22,346 bases of DNA from Nitrospirota bacterium (GTDB taxonomy: Bacteria; NPL-UPA2; JAADIA01): the NCBI GenBank assembly GCA_013151555.1, contig JAADIA010000034.1, positions 1 through 22,346 of the forward strand, read 5' to 3'. The notes below the pieces were generated by a model. That model worked only from the letters and a program-made list of their open reading frames with translations, did not search any database and was not told the DNA's origin. The position numbers and the translations under genes are program-made. Of the stretch, positions 12,797-19,780 are shown piece by piece; position 1 is the stretch's first letter; each line of letters begins with the position of its first letter.

Positions 12797-14098
12797 TTAT
12801 ATTTCTGGTTTAATTCCTATTCCTATATAAGTAAATCCCATATTTTTTAATTCCCGGGGGTTGTAGATATTCCGTCCATCAAGGATAAGAGGATTGTTAA
12901 GAAGCGATTTTATGCGTTTAAGGTCTAAGTTTTTGAATTGCTCCCATTCCGTGAGAATAAGCAGACAATCACTGCCCTCGGCGACTTCGTAAGGATCAGC
13001 ACAATACTCGATATCTTTGAGAACTGCCCGGGTTGTCTCGATAGCAGCCGGGTCAAAGGCTTTAATTTTAGCCCCTTCGGCCTGAAGTTGTTCAATTATC
13101 TTGAGGGAAGGAGCTTCCCTTACATCATCAGTGTCCGGCTTAAAAGCAAGACCCAGGACCCCGATAGTCTTATTATTTAAAGTCCATAAGGAATCCTTAA
13201 TCTTCTTTAAGAATTGTTCTCTTTGTTCACGATTTACTTTCTCGGCAACTCTCAAGAGCTCGAAATCATATCCGGATTCTCCCGCTATTTTTATAAAAGC
13301 AGCTATGTCCTTGGGAAAGCAACTCCCTCCATAGCCTATCCCGGCTTTCAAGAAGCTCCGGCCAATGCGCTTATCCAACCCCATGCCTTCAGCCACCTTC
13401 TCCACGTCCGCCCCTACCAGCTCACAGACGTTAGCGATAGCATTAATGTAGGAAATCTTTAAAGCTAAGAAAGAGTTGGAAGCATGCTTGATGATTTCCG
13501 CACTCTTTATATCAGTAAAGATAAGGGAAGCTTTAAGGGGCTCGTATAGCTCCCGCATTACTTTCTCCGCCCTTTCGCTTTCTACTCCGACAACGATTCT
13601 ATCCGGATACATAAAATCATAGATAGCCGACCCTTCCCGCAGAAATTCCGGATTGGAGACGACATCGAAATCTACTCCATGAACATTATTGAGTTTAATC
13701 GTTCTCCTTACCCACTCTCCCGTCTTCACAGGAACAGTGCTCTTTTCTACAACTATCTTATATTCCTCCATAGCCCCGGCGATTCTCTTCGAAACGTCTT
13801 CCACATAAGAAAGGTCCGCTTCTCCATTATCCCGGGAAGGGGTACCTACAGAAATAAAGATTATCCCGGATTCTTTAACTCCTTCTTCGAGACCGGTAGT
13901 GAAAGACAGCCTTCCCTCTTTAACGTTCTTCTTCACTAACTCTTCTAATTCCGGCTCGAAAAAGGGAATAATTCCTTTTCTCAGTTTATTAATCTTCTCC
14001 CCGTCCACATCAACGCAAACCACTTCATTTCCCAGATCGGCAAAACAGGCGCCGGAAACCAATCCCACATGCCCTGCCCCAATTATACAAATTTTCAT
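12797..14098 (-). CDS. ugd: UDP-glucose 6-dehydrogenase
   Basis: A 433-residue cytoplasmic enzyme that oxidises UDP-glucose twice with NAD+ to UDP-glucuronate. Visible features are the N-terminal NAD fold GAGHVGLVSG (residues 7-16), VGTPSRD, VSNPEFLREGSAI, Lys204 in IKHASNSFLALK and the catalytic Cys260 in GIGYGGSCFPKD. The C-terminal UDP-binding half has GLAFKPDTDDVREAPS and DGRNIYNP. AAGGAG precedes ATG 14098. Its product feeds the UXS encoded downstream, giving UDP-xylose for surface glycans. A heptamer-built inverted repeat with a T-run lies between it and lptD, so its expression may be partly independent of the upstream genes. Confidence 0.95.
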   Translation of the reverse strand: MKICIIGAGHVGLVSGACFADLGNEVVCVDVDGEKINKLRKGIIPFFEPELEELVKKNVKEGRLSFTTGLEEGVKESGIIFISVGTPSRDNGEADLSYVEDVSKRIAGAMEEYKIVVEKSTVPVKTGEWVRRTIKLNNVHGVDFDVVSNPEFLREGSAIYDFMYPDRIVVGVESERAEKVMRELYEPLKASLIFTDIKSAEIIKHASNSFLALKISYINAIANVCELVGADVEKVAEGMGLDKRIGRSFLKAGIGYGGSCFPKDIAAFIKIAGESGYDFELLRVAEKVNREQREQFLKKIKDSLWTLNNKTIGVLGLAFKPDTDDVREAPSLKIIEQLQAEGAKIKAFDPAAIETTRAVLKDIEYCADPYEVAEGSDCLLILTEWEQFKNLDLKRIKSLLNNPLILDGRNIYNPRELKNMGFTYIGIGIKPEI

Positions 14099-14110: not shown

Positions 14111-14220
14111 TTGAAAAAATAGGATTCAGGATTCAGCGCTCAGGATTCAGGATTCAGCAAAAAGAAAAACTTAATACTTATAACTTACCGCTTACAACTG
14201 AATCCTGAGCGCTGAATCCT
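14111..14220 (-). terminator. Possible attenuator or terminator before ugd
   Basis: Read in the gene direction, the 23-bp stem is followed by one more heptamer and then ATTTTTTC, just before the ugd ribosome site. The T-run is 8 bases from the stem and the loop is long, so termination is possible but not canonical. Confidence 0.3.
14121..14220. repeat. Heptamer-repeat element with 23-bp perfect inverted repeat between lptD and ugd
   Basis: On the plus strand the left part reads as 7-base units AGGATTC, AGGATTC, AGCGCTC, AGGATTC, AGGATTC (14121-14155). The right part reads CTTAATA, CTTATAA, CTTACCG, CTTACAA, CTGAATC, CTGAGCG, CTGAATC (14170-14218) with no slip in phase. Bases 14128-14150 and 14198-14220 are perfect 23-base inverted copies with a 47-base loop. 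It fills most of the 139-base gap and has no coding potential. Confidence 0.85.
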
Positions 14221-14237
14221 ATGCTTTGTGCTTCATC

Positions 14238-16436
14238 TCATTTAATAGGAATCGACACGGGAAGAGGAGAGGCCGGCTTCAACCGGAAAACAATAAATAT
14301 GCCTACCTCATCTTTACTATCCTGTCTCCACTTCTTCTGAACAAAGATTTGTCCATCCCAATGGTGGAGGTTGCGGGTAAGGGCTATCCTCCATTCCTCA
14401 TTATGGCCGTTTATTCCCAGAGTTTTGTCACCAATCCAGTCATAGCGCTGGTAGACTTGGAGCTTCCACTTAGGGCTGATTAGCCCGCTGGCACTAACGA
14501 TGGTATCAAAATTCGTGGGGCTCCCCTCCGGGTCATAATATTCCGTCCCCAGGGAGAGATTCCAGCTCTCATTCGTCCACCCAAGTCCTTCAAACCGGTC
14601 TCGATACTTATATTTATTTTGCTCTCCCCTCCATCCGAAACCGGTAGAAAATTCGTTCAGCCAGCCGGTATTGACATCATAATTTGCCTCTCCCTCAAAA
14701 CTTATTTTCTCTGTCGGAATTAACTTCAAATCAGCTATCAAATCTCCCCAGGCATGATGTCCCCGGCCAAGGAACTCACTATTCCGGTAAAACTTGCTGC
14801 TCAAGGTAAATGTTGCCAGCTCCCTTTTATTCCCCCCGGCCCCTTTTCCGATTAACCGATTGACCAGCTCTAAATCAAAATAGTCCTGCTTAAGGGAAAG
14901 TTTATCATTGAAAGAGAAGAGATCGTTCCGATTCTTAGTAGACTCCGGGGAATAGTAATAAGTCAACCTCGGCTGAATCAAATGTCGCATCTGCATCTTC
15001 CTGAACTGAAAGACAGGACTATAAAGAGTGGTATTCATTCCCAGGCGCGTTTCGTAGTTGCCCATCCAGCGGTTCCTATCACCCAACCTGTCCTTGCTAT
15101 ACCAAAATCCTCGGCCGCCCAGGGCCGGTTCCAATCGTAACCATCCTAACCGGCTCGGCCGGGATAACTCTAAATGGCTATCTACCTGAGTGGACACATC
15201 ACCTTGGGGTGCCTCGTGAAAATAGACCAGACCGCTATCGAAATTCCAGTAGAAGGAAGAATCTCCTAACTCCTGCCTGTTTAAATCGAAGGTAACCTCA
15301 GGCAATTTCTCCGGAATAACTCCCACGAAATCGTTTATTCGTTTCTTTATATAGAGCTGCGCCGTGTAGTCGGGACGGCTTTTGGTAATGGACAGGGTAC
15401 CTTCCGGCGATTGGTCTTCCAGATAATCTCGAAGAAATCCTTTCCATTGTTCTTCATCTTCGTAATCGGTATTGAAATCAGCATCACTGAATTTATCCAC
15501 CCGGATGATAGCGATCGTATCTTCAGATAATTTTTGCCGATGCCGGAGGTGTAACTTCCAGCGGTCAATGGTCTCAGCATCCGGGGGATTCTGCCACTTC
15601 CCCTTTTGTTCATTCCAGAGAAGTTCTTTCTCATCAATAAAATAGCCATAGAAGTAACCTTTTCCGGTTCGTTCCCCGGAACCAAACCGGTAAGAGGTAT
15701 CGAAACCTTTTCCTACTCCCAACCGCTCGATATAGTCCAAATAAATTCTTCCTCGCACTTGAGGATTTATATACCAGTTATAATGGCTGATGGCAAACCA
15801 CCCCTTTTTAGAATCGTGTCCCATCGGCCACAAAACAAGCCCATAAGGAACTTTTTTCAAAGAGCGTTTGAAAACGGGCAAATAAGCTAAAGGGACATTC
15901 CTCACATAAAAGATAACATTGTAAGCCCAGAACCTTTGGCCGGGGAATATCTTCATCCGACTGGCAGTAAACCGATAATGAGGTTTAGGAAACTCTGCAG
16001 GATTATCGGTGGTGAAAGTTCCTTTTTCCATAAGATACTCATTTTTCGCCACCTTCTTCATTTTATCTCCCCGAACAAACCAGGGCTCGAGGAAGGTTCG
16101 AGCTTTATCCATTGTCCCTTTCTGAGCGTTCAGGTCATAAACTAATGTCTCTCCATAAAATTTATCACCTCCTTCATTGAGGATAACATTCCCCTTTGCA
16201 AAGAGGAGCTTTTTCGCCAGATCAAATCTGGCCCAGTCCGCTCTCGTTTTCATTCCTTTATATTGCACTTCTACATTTCCCCGACCGATGATGATTTCCT
16301 CTCCCGCCAGGTACTCTAAATAATCCCCGGAGAAGTCAATGGGGAGTTCTTCCTCCGCCATGGATGTACTGGAAAGAAAAAGGCTGAGACCGATAAATAA
16401 AAAAACTTTCCAACTAAACACAGGTTTATCTACCAC
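14238..16436 (-). CDS. lptD: LPS-assembly outer-membrane protein LptD (OstA/Imp)
   Basis: A 732-residue protein with a signal peptide (residues 1-27, ending STSMA), an LptA/OstA-like N-terminal domain (~32-140, GNVEVQYKG and GNVILNEGG repeats) and a long C-terminal beta-barrel region rich in alternating aromatic strands, including the PLAYLPVFK segment typical of LptD. With LptE it delivers LPS to the outer leaflet of the outer membrane, so the cell is diderm. I find no cysteine in the sequence, so the disulfides used by E. coli LptD cannot form. The start is GTG 16436, overlapping the E2 gene's end by 7 bases with GGAG 8 bases before it; a second GTG at 16421 is possible. The length is near the family norm. 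Confidence 0.88.
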   Translation of the reverse strand: MVDKPVFSWKVFLFIGLSLFLSSTSMAEEELPIDFSGDYLEYLAGEEIIIGRGNVEVQYKGMKTRADWARFDLAKKLLFAKGNVILNEGGDKFYGETLVYDLNAQKGTMDKARTFLEPWFVRGDKMKKVAKNEYLMEKGTFTTDNPAEFPKPHYRFTASRMKIFPGQRFWAYNVIFYVRNVPLAYLPVFKRSLKKVPYGLVLWPMGHDSKKGWFAISHYNWYINPQVRGRIYLDYIERLGVGKGFDTSYRFGSGERTGKGYFYGYFIDEKELLWNEQKGKWQNPPDAETIDRWKLHLRHRQKLSEDTIAIIRVDKFSDADFNTDYEDEEQWKGFLRDYLEDQSPEGTLSITKSRPDYTAQLYIKKRINDFVGVIPEKLPEVTFDLNRQELGDSSFYWNFDSGLVYFHEAPQGDVSTQVDSHLELSRPSRLGWLRLEPALGGRGFWYSKDRLGDRNRWMGNYETRLGMNTTLYSPVFQFRKMQMRHLIQPRLTYYYSPESTKNRNDLFSFNDKLSLKQDYFDLELVNRLIGKGAGGNKRELATFTLSSKFYRNSEFLGRGHHAWGDLIADLKLIPTEKISFEGEANYDVNTGWLNEFSTGFGWRGEQNKYKYRDRFEGLGWTNESWNLSLGTEYYDPEGSPTNFDTIVSASGLISPKWKLQVYQRYDWIGDKTLGINGHNEEWRIALTRNLHHWDGQIFVQKKWRQDSKDEVGIFIVFRLKPASPLPVSIPIK

Positions 16437-17617
16437 TCTCCTGTCTCCAGAATCTCTTTTAATTTTTGCAGAAACCGAGCAGCCACAGCTCCATCCACTA
16501 CCCGATGGTCGACAGAGAGAGTTAATTTCATCAAAAGTCTTATTTCCACTCGGTCCTCCACGACGGCAGGCTTTTTCAGGATAGCGCCCACTCCTAAAAT
16601 AGCCGACTGATATTGATTGATAATGGGAAGAAAATTTTCTATTCCGAACATGCCTAAATTGGAAATAGTAAAATTTGCTCCGAAATACTCTTCTGCCTTA
16701 AGCTTCTTAGCCCGGGCTCTGGAGACAACATTCTCTACCTCAGAGGCCAACTCGACCAAACTTTTTTTATCTGCTTCTCTTAATACGGGAACAATGAGAC
16801 CCTCTTCCAAACCAACAGCAATGCCAATATTAATTTCCTCTCTAATGGCAATCCCTTCCTTATCCCAGACAGAGGTAACCCCGGGATATTCCTTTAAGGC
16901 CAGGGCAACTGCCCGGATCAAGAGATGGTTGAAAGATAGTTTCACCCCTGTCTTTTTCTCTACCTCAGGTAAGAGCTTCTTCCTCCGGCTGACTGCTTCC
17001 GTCATATCAACTTCAACCGTCAGGTAATAATGAGGAATAGTTTTCTTCGCCTCGGCCATCGATTCGGCAATAGCTTTCCTCATCGGACTAAGCGGCACTA
17101 TCTTTTCACTTTTAACTTTCAACTTTAAACTTTTAACTTTCAACACATCCTCTTTGGTAATTCTTCCTCCCGGACCGGTACCGGGAACCTGAGCTAAATC
17201 AATTCCTTTTTCCCGGGCTAATTTTTTAGCTAAGGGAGAAGCTTTTATCCGTGCACGGGACGATAGTTGATAATCCATAGAGTCTGTCTCTTCTGTCTCT
17301 CCGGCTTTCTCCTCAAAAACTTTATTCTCTCTGGTATCGAATTCCTTAGGCTTCCCACTAACCTCGGGCAGAGGTTCCCCTTTTTCCGCAATAAGGGCAA
17401 TTACCTGAGCTACAGGGACCGTTTCTCCTTCCGGGGAAAGTATTTTGCGAAGGATTCCTGAACCGTACGATTCTACTTCCAGGGTAGCTTTATCAGTAGT
17501 TACTTCCAGGAGAATATCTCCCTTTTCCACCCGCTCCCCTTCTTTTTTTACCCAGCGCTCAATGACCCCTTCTTCCATAGTCTCTCCCAGCTTGGGCATG
17601 ATTACTTCAGTTACCAT
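16430..17617 (-). CDS. pdhC: 2-oxo acid dehydrogenase E2 (dihydrolipoamide acetyltransferase)
   Basis: A 395-residue E2. One lipoyl domain (residues 1-80) carries the lipoylated Lys43 in TTDKATLE. An acidic linker is followed by the E3/E1-binding domain (~120-160, RIKASPLAKKLAREKGIDL, VPGTGPGGRI). A short Lys-rich linker (158-172) leads to the acetyltransferase domain (from LSPMRKAIAESM), ending with the active-site DHRVVDG (His371, Asp375). It transfers acetyl groups from E1 to CoA. The linker is encoded by six perfect 7-base repeats (17103-17144). ATG 17617 has AAGGA upstream and matches the domain start, so I reject the longer frame from 17656. It follows the E1beta gene after 211 bases of repeat sequence. 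Pyruvate is the likely substrate; acetoin is the alternative. Confidence 0.92.
   Translation of the reverse strand: MVTEVIMPKLGETMEEGVIERWVKKEGERVEKGDILLEVTTDKATLEVESYGSGILRKILSPEGETVPVAQVIALIAEKGEPLPEVSGKPKEFDTRENKVFEEKAGETEETDSMDYQLSSRARIKASPLAKKLAREKGIDLAQVPGTGPGGRITKEDVLKVKSLKLKVKSEKIVPLSPMRKAIAESMAEAKKTIPHYYLTVEVDMTEAVSRRKKLLPEVEKKTGVKLSFNHLLIRAVALALKEYPGVTSVWDKEGIAIREEINIGIAVGLEEGLIVPVLREADKKSLVELASEVENVVSRARAKKLKAEEYFGANFTISNLGMFGIENFLPIINQYQSAILGVGAILKKPAVVEDRVEIRLLMKLTLSVDHRVVDGAVAARFLQKLKEILETGEW
17103..17144. repeat. Six in-phase heptamer repeats inside the E2 coding sequence
   Basis: On the plus strand the units are TTTTCAC, TTTTAAC, TTTCAAC, TTTAAAC, TTTTAAC and TTTCAAC, exactly 42 bases with no slip. 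On the coding strand they give residues 158-172 with a 7-residue period (LKVKSLK, LKVKSEK). 42 is a multiple of three, so the frame is kept. Confidence 0.85.
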
Positions 17618-17666
17618 AAGTTTTTCCTTAGTATATCTTTGCCTGAACAGGTACACAGTTTAGAAA

Positions 17667-17803
17667 AATCCGAAATACTAAATTCGAAACTCGAAACAAA
17701 TCCTAAACTCTAATTCCCAAAATTCCAAACATGGTTTTGGTAATTTGTATTTTGGTCATTTGAGTTTGTTTCGTATTTCGAGCTTCGTATTTCGAGTTTC
17801 TAA
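17667..17803. repeat. Degenerate inverted heptamer-repeat element between E1beta and E2 genes
   Basis: The left half has A-rich 7-base units (AATCCGA, AATACTA, AATTCGA, AACTCGA from 17667). The right half has T-rich units (TTTCGTA, TTTCGAG, CTTCGTA, TTTCGAG, TTTCTAA from 17769). The halves are imperfect reverse complements centred near CATG at 17730-17733. It fills most of the 211-base gap, with no coding frame. Confidence 0.75.
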
Positions 17804-17828
17804 CTTTTGTGCTTTTGTGCTTTTTCCT

Positions 17829-18803
17829 CTAAGAGATAACTTTTTTCACCGCCTCAATTATCTTCTCCACGCTGGGAACGGCTGCTTTTTCCAGAACCGG
17901 ACTCATCGGAATAGGCACATCAGCAGCAGCTACGCGAATGATGGGAGCATCTAAATAGTCGAACCCCTTCTCTGCAATTTGGGCAGCAATTTCCCCGGCA
18001 ACTCCTCCTGTCTTACAGGCCTCTGAGACAATAATGACCCGGTTTGTCTTCCTCACCGAATCAAGAATCATATCCATATCAAGCGGCTTCAGCGTGCGGA
18101 CATCGATGACTTCCAAACTGATCCCTTCCTTTTCCAACTCCCCGGCCGCTTCTAAAGCCAGGAGGACCATGCGAGAATAAGCAACTACCGTTACATCGTT
18201 ACCCTTGCGCTTTATATCGGCTCTCCCCAGAGGAATGGTATATTCTTCCTCGGGAACATTACCCTTGGTCATGTAAAGCATCTTATGTTCGATGAAGATA
18301 ACGGGATTATCATCACGGATGGCCGTCTTGAGCAACCCTTTGGCATCATAGGAAGTAGAAGGCATAATTACGTAGAGACCCGGAACATGAACAAACCAAG
18401 CTTCCAGGCTCTGGGAATGGTGACCGGCAACACCTCTTCCGGTTCCTCCCTGTGTCCTCATAACCATAGGAACAGTAGTCTTTCCACCAAACATATAGCG
18501 GTTCTTGGCAGCAATGTTAACCAATTGGTCCATAGCGATAGTGCTGAAATCGATAGACATTATCTCTGCCACCGGTCTCATTCCCGTCATCGCAGCTCCG
18601 GCAGCAGCTCCGGCAATGGCAGCCTCAGAGATAGCCGTATCCCTCACCCGCTCGTCCCCGAACTCCTTATAGAGTCCTCTTGTCACTCCGTAAGCCCCAC
18701 CATAAGGGCCGACATCTTCCCCCATAATGAATACGTGCTCGTCCCGTTTCATTTCCTCTCTTAAAGCTTCATTTAAAGCCTGCCAGTAAAATATTTCCCG
18801 CAT
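17829..18803 (-). CDS. pdhB: 2-oxo acid (pyruvate) dehydrogenase E1 beta subunit
   Basis: A 324-residue transketolase-like beta subunit of usual length. Visible motifs are [12 protein letters not shown] with the conserved Glu29 near the thiamine-diphosphate site, [32 protein letters not shown] with His128/His129, and DVRTLKPLD in the C-terminal domain. With E1alpha it decarboxylates pyruvate and acetylates lipoyl-E2. It starts 11 bases after the E1alpha stop, which implies stoichiometric co-expression. The E2 gene follows only after a 211-base repeat-filled gap. Acetoin dehydrogenase AcoB has the same fold and cannot be excluded from sequence alone. Confidence 0.92.
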
Positions 18804-18814
18804 CTTTTTCTCTC

Positions 18815-19780
18815 TTATCCGGTAAAGAAAACATCACAAGTCAACTCATCTACCGATGGCCAGGGACTGGAAAGAGCATATTCAGTGGCTTCATTTACCT
18901 CTTGTTGAATGCTTTCTTCTAAATTATCAATTTCTTCTTCCGTTACTACATCTTCCTCAAGTAACTTTTTTTTAAAGCTCTCCACGGGATCTTTCTTTTT
19001 CCATTCTGCTTCCTCTTCTCTCGTCCGGTAAACACGAGGGTCACTGCGGGAATGACCGTAGTAGCGATAGGTCTTACATTCAATCAGGGACGGACCGTCC
19101 CCTTTTCGAGCTCTTCTCACTGCTTTAGCTACAACCTCTTTAACTTCGAGAACATTCATGCCATCTACAATTTCTCCCGGCATATTGTAAGATACGGCCC
19201 TGACGGCAATGTCGGTTACTGACAAAGCCCTTTTTACGGAGACCGACATTCCGTAGAGATTGTTCTCGCAGATATAAATCACCGGCAGTTTCCAGACGGA
19301 AGCCATGTTCAAAGATTCATGAAATCCTCCCGTATTAGAAGCGCCGTCTCCAAAGAAACATAAGACGACTCTATCCATCTTCTGCATTTTCATGGAGAGG
19401 GCAGCTCCCGTGGCCACCGGGATATTGGAACCGACTATACCGGTAGCTCCTAAGTTGCCTTTAGCTACATCGGCAATGTGCATCGACCCACCCCGCCCTT
19501 TACAGTATCCGGTAGCCCGGCCACAGAGTTCCGCCATCATTTTCTTCAGCTCTCCCCCTTTAGCCAAACAGTGTCCGTGCCCCCGATGAGTACTGGCGAT
19601 ATAATCATCCTCTCGAATAGCGGCAATGGCTCCCACGGCTACGGACTCTTCTCCTATGTAGATATGGGAAGTTCCTTTTATCAAATCCTTTCCTAACAAC
19701 TCGGAAACCTTTTCTTCAAAATAGCGAATCTTTAACATTGTTTCCAAGTAATTAATCAAATCTTCTTTCTTCTCGACCAT
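18815..19780 (-). CDS. pdhA: 2-oxo acid (pyruvate) dehydrogenase E1 alpha subunit
   Basis: A 321-residue thiamine-diphosphate enzyme subunit. It has the THRGHGH motif (residues 64-70), [10 protein letters not shown] (96-104), the ThDP/Mg motif beginning GDGASNTG (144-151) and closing ENN (172-174), and [11 protein letters not shown] in the C-terminal part. Its partner E1beta is encoded 11 bases downstream and E2 after that. No E3 (dihydrolipoamide dehydrogenase) gene is in the window, so E3 must be encoded elsewhere. The length is close to Gram-positive-type PdhA and AcoA. Pyruvate is the likely substrate because upstream genes are sugar kinases, but acetoin is possible. Confidence 0.92.

Follow-up and report, generated by a model that had tools for sequence, protein, structure and literature searches.

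Background

Rickettsia palindromic elements (RPE) are dispersed short repeats that are found in frame within preexisting genes, which they leave unbroken; orthologues have inserts at the same locus, and near-identical sites can take different element groups (PMC3767692). Tandem heptamers have also been described. The TAACTGA arrays of Beggiatoaceae, cyanobacteria and Bacteroidetes are mostly intergenic, with some read as the peptide LSVISYQ (PMC4679880), and the heptanucleotide elements of Geobacter (GGGACCG x4 and MTYCTGA x5) are both intergenic and intragenic, some of them paired on opposite strands (PMC2700814). In Borgs, nucleotide tandem repeats within open reading frames (ORFs) give peptide repeats that are often disordered (PMC9879509). 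The present work concerns a heptanucleotide array that lies in the linker of a dihydrolipoamide acyltransferase, the E2 component of a 2-oxoacid dehydrogenase, and which is encoded on a 22,346-nucleotide stretch of DNA, here called the window (contig JAADIA010000034.1 of the Nitrospirota bacterium assembly GCA_013151555.1). The array is probably a captured copy of a dispersed, degenerate AARGTTN array element that belongs to this NPL-UPA2-lineage genome.

What is it that sets this system apart from those already described? The likeness to RPE lies in in-frame insertion relative to orthologues, which is seen here with HisF, MiaB and PyrK, although the E2 shows no net gain. However, RPE are palindromic and 100-150 bp long and belong to Rickettsia, whereas here tandem arrays of degenerate 7-base units, often with one arm only and from several families, occur in an unrelated candidate phylum. 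The TAACTGA repeats share both the tandem 7-base arrangement and the production, in some genes, of a 7-residue peptide, but they have one exact unit, those inside genes fall mostly in hypothetical proteins or at protein ends, and their proposed role is upstream of start codons; the arrays here have degenerate units of several families and are found inside core enzymes and close to the 3' ends of genes. The Geobacter elements have other unit sequences, and no reading-frame, codon-phase or orthologous-site analysis of them appears in the available part of PMC2700814. None of the units identified here is TAACTGA, GGGACCG or MTYCTGA. Within Borg ORFs almost every unit is perfect and has a length divisible by three, in contrast to the degenerate 7-nucleotide units here, which give the same peptide in every frame. 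A literature search on NPL-UPA2 and repeats gave no paper that dealt with repeats in its title or abstract. In-frame dispersed repeats (Rickettsia), heptamer arrays read as 7-residue peptides (TAACTGA) and intergenic and intragenic heptanucleotide arrays (Geobacter) are thus already known. What differs here is the combination of several degenerate unit families, core-enzyme hosts, codon-phase independence and the presence of different families in one orthologous loop.

The array in the E2 linker

The gene and the array within it are as follows.

16430..17617, minus strand: gene for E2 dihydrolipoamide acyltransferase, with lipoyl, E3-binding and catalytic domains (Pfam, homologues, gene call; ATG at 17617)
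17102..17143, minus strand: heptanucleotide array in the E2 linker, with five AAAGTTN units and one degenerate unit, encoding the peptide LKVKSLKLKVKSEK, residues 159-172 (sequence, Tandem Repeats Finder, significance tests)

On the coding strand, from 17143 to 17102, the units read TTGAAAG TTAAAAG TTTAAAG TTGAAAG TTAAAAG TGAAAAG, and Tandem Repeats Finder reports 6.1 copies over 17102-17144 with 86% matches. A preliminary description of this DNA had proposed six exact TTTYAAC units: the period of seven and the number of units hold, but the exactness does not, since one plus-strand unit, TTTAAAC, departs from the pattern and the coding-strand series ends in a degenerate unit. The description was right to place the array inside the E2 frame, since the Pfam positions put it between the E3/E1-binding domain (137-172) and the catalytic domain (183-405, both in the numbering of the longer ORF), and equally so in reading from it a Lys-rich 7-residue repeat, KVKSLKL/KVKSEK. 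When this peptide was held fixed, the observed period was reached by only 2 of 200,000 synonymous recodings. The array forms a single 42-nt arm without RNA structure (fold z +1.2), and an Rfam search of the window gave zero matches. In a structure prediction of the E2 made from a two-row alignment only (mean predicted local distance difference test score 46), residues 163-196 have no confident structure; the model is otherwise uninformative.

A genome-wide family of heptamer arrays

The host genome is a 1.81 Mb draft of 99 contigs, of which the window is contig 46. The sample consisted of 0.86 Mb of stretches, about half of the genome, part of which had been picked for AACTTT matches, such that array density is biased upward. 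Genes were predicted by a home-made caller, which recovered the main genes of the window; in-gene arrays were counted in genes of at least 120 amino acids, and AARGTTN arrays needed at least four units. The 708 predicted genes contain 13 strict period-7 arrays; codon shuffling leaves 0, and synonymous recoding a mean of 0.05 (20 replicates each). Across the sample there are 60 arrays of period 7 and 23 of period 8, with most other non-multiples of 7 giving 6 or fewer. The 60 are divided between gaps (29 wholly within them), gene ends (13 lying across) and ORFs (18 within), and the genome thus holds tandem 7-base units at many places with an enrichment between genes.

The consensus of the family to which the E2 array belongs is AARGTTN, where N is mostly A, G or T. 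Such arrays number 32 in the sample, with 14 in genes, 10 in gaps and 8 overlapping a gene end. With no more than one mismatch the pattern is found 64 times in the genome against 5 in a reversed control, and zero times in most of 98 genomes; with up to three mismatches the counts are 185 and 130, a difference that is weak alone, and it is the strict count that is used as evidence. Its hosts include E2, PyrK, HisF, LeuRS, Lon, Mfd, Lnt, KdsB, TrxB, phosphoglycerate mutase and GmhB, with MiaB and UvrA carrying arrays of a different unit, ACAGANN (the identities of HisF, MiaB and LeuRS were assigned by homology). AARGTTN, ACAGANN, CTTAATA, AGGATTC and others make up the unit families of the genome. 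In at least 16 genes of this half-genome sample, repeat DNA supplies segments to essential enzymes, a breadth across core genes and unit families that the preliminary description had missed. ACAGANN arrays are also present in distant bacteria outside the phylum (G037, G094 and G095).

Origin of the E2 array

An origin of the E2 array from the dispersed repeats is well supported. Growth in place as the sole origin is unlikely, because at least 32 arrays share this degenerate unit and adjacent units resemble each other no more than chance would have it, with 16 of 50 pairs alike against 14.7 for independent draws. The suggestion in the preliminary description that an intergenic repeat had entered, or grown in, a tolerant linker is upheld with regard to membership of a family found between genes, a repeat at the DNA level and tolerance, but net growth is not seen. 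An array would survive at a flexible protein site, provided that its total length preserves the frame and that none of its units creates a stop. The E2 would keep its copy because almost any soluble sequence is presumably tolerated in the linker that separates its binding and catalytic domains, and the array would have no special role in E2 chemistry. Spread could have been by mobilisation in trans or by repair-coupled copying.

Several points weigh against capture. The compared relatives all lie outside the genus of this genome (G000), which bears on the empty-site comparison. Its own E2 linker is no longer than the array-free linker of G003 (21 residues), such that insertion, replacement and overwriting are indistinguishable, and TrxB appears similar. 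Unit order is not shared among arrays above chance, with no pair having a run of four or more units; together with the neighbour-unit result this leaves simple slippage and recent whole-array copying each unsupported as the sole process. Finally, no transposase or donor was identified, mobile-element features not having been searched for systematically.

The E2 linkers of relatives provide further detail. In G001, which belongs to another family, three units match the array at 19 of 21 nucleotides, compared with a gene-wide identity of 66.5%, and the linker shares KLKVKSE, its unit number differing from that of G000 by about three. This suggests, from sequence comparison, that the E2 array may predate the split of the two families, or else that capture was repeated; G001 would later have gained a palindrome at the array edge. 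The linker stretch covers 39 residues in G001 and 21 in G000, the same length as in G003, which lacks an AARGTTN array. An alignment of relatives thus reveals the different unit count that had been anticipated, in G001, but not a lengthening, given the equally long G003 linker. The E2 linkers of G003 and G004 are rich in K, E and G; those of G006 and G008 are short and Lys-poor. The contrary case named at the outset, a Lys-rich linker with different codons in distant E2 proteins, was not found in G006, G008 or G039, and the one sharer, G001, has near-identical DNA. Two other linkers were considered as array copies and rejected: that of G004 shows a lag-7 period (p 0.0005) but is of low complexity, that of G003 shows no clear one (p 0.08), and both are without strong dispersed matches.

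Insertions in HisF, MiaB and PyrK

The HisF of this genome (L162 14918-15760) has 31 more residues than solved HisF, encoded by an inverted heptamer pair whose two arms lie in one loop. The units in this loop are AARGTTN in G000, CGAATAN and GCAAATT in G003, and CATCTGA in G004, each of the three inserts being periodic at lag 7 to a degree reached by none of 2,000 shuffles; a comparable insert is absent from G001, G006 and G008. Different repeat families therefore settle in the same protein loop of related genomes. In MiaB (L073 3316-4947), an ACAGAAC-type array adds about 66 residues to the radical-SAM part, between positions 252 and 319. The MiaB insert of G001 was rejected as a heptamer array, as it has a period of 15. 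That protein (L173) has a long charged insert at a different site, with a true 5-residue repeat.

In three genomes, from two families, the PyrK gene contains two or three heptamer arrays (L124 3040-3969; L104 4963-5847; L183 1501-2358). Arrays at two sites are common to the family of this genome and to the genus of G001 and G004, and are absent in G002, G006 and G008; the net insertion at site 1 is about 10 residues. A third site is occupied in G001 and G004 only, and the G004 PyrK has an extra palindrome. This palindrome, CGACCCACNCTGTGGGT, joins AAGTT units via TACCCC (L103 5616-5708, L124 3688-3730), and in nine genomes there are only two copies, in the G004 PyrK and the G001 E2 linker, both within genes. 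A LipB-like gene (L086 17506-17524) has an exact 19-base match to the palindrome/heptamer junction of G001, with DTPKLK in both, which is possibly a coincidence.

DNA-level or peptide-level pattern

Fundamental to the reading of these arrays is that 7 equals 1 modulo 3, such that 21 bases cover all three phases and the same kind of 7-residue peptide results from any frame of one strand. The array peptides are K-V-x-S-x-K-L/F on one strand and N-F-x-L/P-S-T-L/F on the other. This codon-phase property explains the any-frame reading and makes directly testable the question of whether DNA or protein is selected. In the 14 in-gene AARGTTN arrays, core mismatches at codon positions 1, 2 and 3 amount to 9, 7 and 7%, and variation at the N position to 33, 60 and 30%. 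Conservation of the core is equal across the three codon positions, and the in-gene pattern is therefore a feature of the DNA; a selected peptide repeat would instead vary at third positions.

This result can be taken further, in that the 6-base core may be actively maintained in coding genes, by a bound protein or by repair to consensus, with the peptide incidental and frame-independent. Such maintenance is put forward only tentatively; if true, core enzymes carry overprinted DNA sites. Related to this is the explanation that selection preserves the units, in genes as well as outside them, as functional DNA sites, such as those to which a regulator or nucleoid protein binds. Consistent with it are the conservation of the core at every codon position and, between families (G004 and G000), a core at PyrK site 1 that differs at 2 of 24 positions against 262 of 743 in flanking codons. 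The arrangement of the 49 gap arrays also fits, with 47 co-directional, 2 convergent and none divergent (from length, about 8 would be expected) and a median distance to a gene 3' end of 12 nt, and similar paired heptamer arrays in Geobacter are annotated as putative regulator sites (PMC2700814). However, in the closer pair, G001 and G004, the PyrK array does not change more slowly than the sequence around it (core 4/24, N 4/4, flank 89/770), many unrelated unit families act alike, and the avoidance of divergent gaps equally fits purging from promoters. Functional sites are on this balance a doubtful explanation.

Replication slippage in the E2 linker itself, with no connection to the intergenic arrays, is less likely still. 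In many bacteria heptanucleotides form the most frequent repeat class, for which polymerase slippage has been proposed (PMC4679880), and the difference in E2 unit number between G000 and G001 is in keeping with such a process. Yet the unit is the common AARGTTN of the genome rather than a random local word, it is borne by HisF and PyrK too, and the identical neighbours that slippage should leave are not in excess.

Could the period instead be a by-product of selection on the protein for a Lys-rich flexible linker? E2 linkers are generally variable and flexible, the G003 and G004 linkers have a similar composition, and the two substitutions that separate G000 from G001 in their common 21 bases are synonymous. 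Nevertheless, this is very improbable given (i) the rarity of the E2 period among synonymous recodings, (ii) the codon-phase test, in which the N position varies whatever the phase, and (iii) the use of both strands by AARGTTN, which gives Lys-rich peptides in E2, LeuRS and PyrK site 1 but a different, NFxLSTF-type peptide in KdsB, Lnt, Mfd and PyrK site 3. Chance low-complexity sequence or an assembly artefact, to which a draft of 99 contigs might be prone, can be dismissed with near certainty, as null counts are near zero, the frames remain open and orthologous PyrK arrays recur in the separately assembled G000, G001 and G004.

Gap arrays and gene neighbourhood

Two gaps of the window also hold heptamer arrays, in the vicinity of the E1 genes and of the gene for LptD (14238-16436).

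14119..14225, no strand assigned: gap flanked by the LptD gene and a gene at 12797-14098, in which an AGGATTC array folds into a hairpin whose 23-nt arms are perfect (-50.4 kcal/mol, z -8.5)
17660..17805, no strand assigned: CGAAAYN heptamer arrays in the E1beta-E2 gap, forming a long imperfect hairpin (inverted arms; RNA fold -45.8 kcal/mol, z -7.1)
17829..18803, minus strand: E1 beta subunit gene, context (Pfam)
18815..19780, minus strand: E1 alpha subunit gene, context (Pfam)

The same type of array had been said to occur in gaps of this gene series. Period-7 arrays are indeed present in the two gaps, but their units differ from that of the E2 and they form long hairpins; AACTTTN arrays sit in gaps elsewhere in the genome. 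An inverted partner was found for 12 of the 49 gap arrays against 2 in the control, and perfect hairpin arms were looked for in AARGTTN pairs and none seen.

The window carries a minus-strand set of E1alpha, E1beta and E2 (Pfam), and the E2 is identified as that of a 2-oxoacid dehydrogenase by PF00364, PF02817 and PF00198 in order and by the adjoining E1 alpha and beta genes. A scan of named genome contigs gave NPL-UPA2 bacterium MAG-914 as the nearest named relative, with one further, distant relative. Within the E1beta gene, at 18592-18615 of the window, there is a perfect 12-base tandem duplication (GCAGCTCCGGCA).
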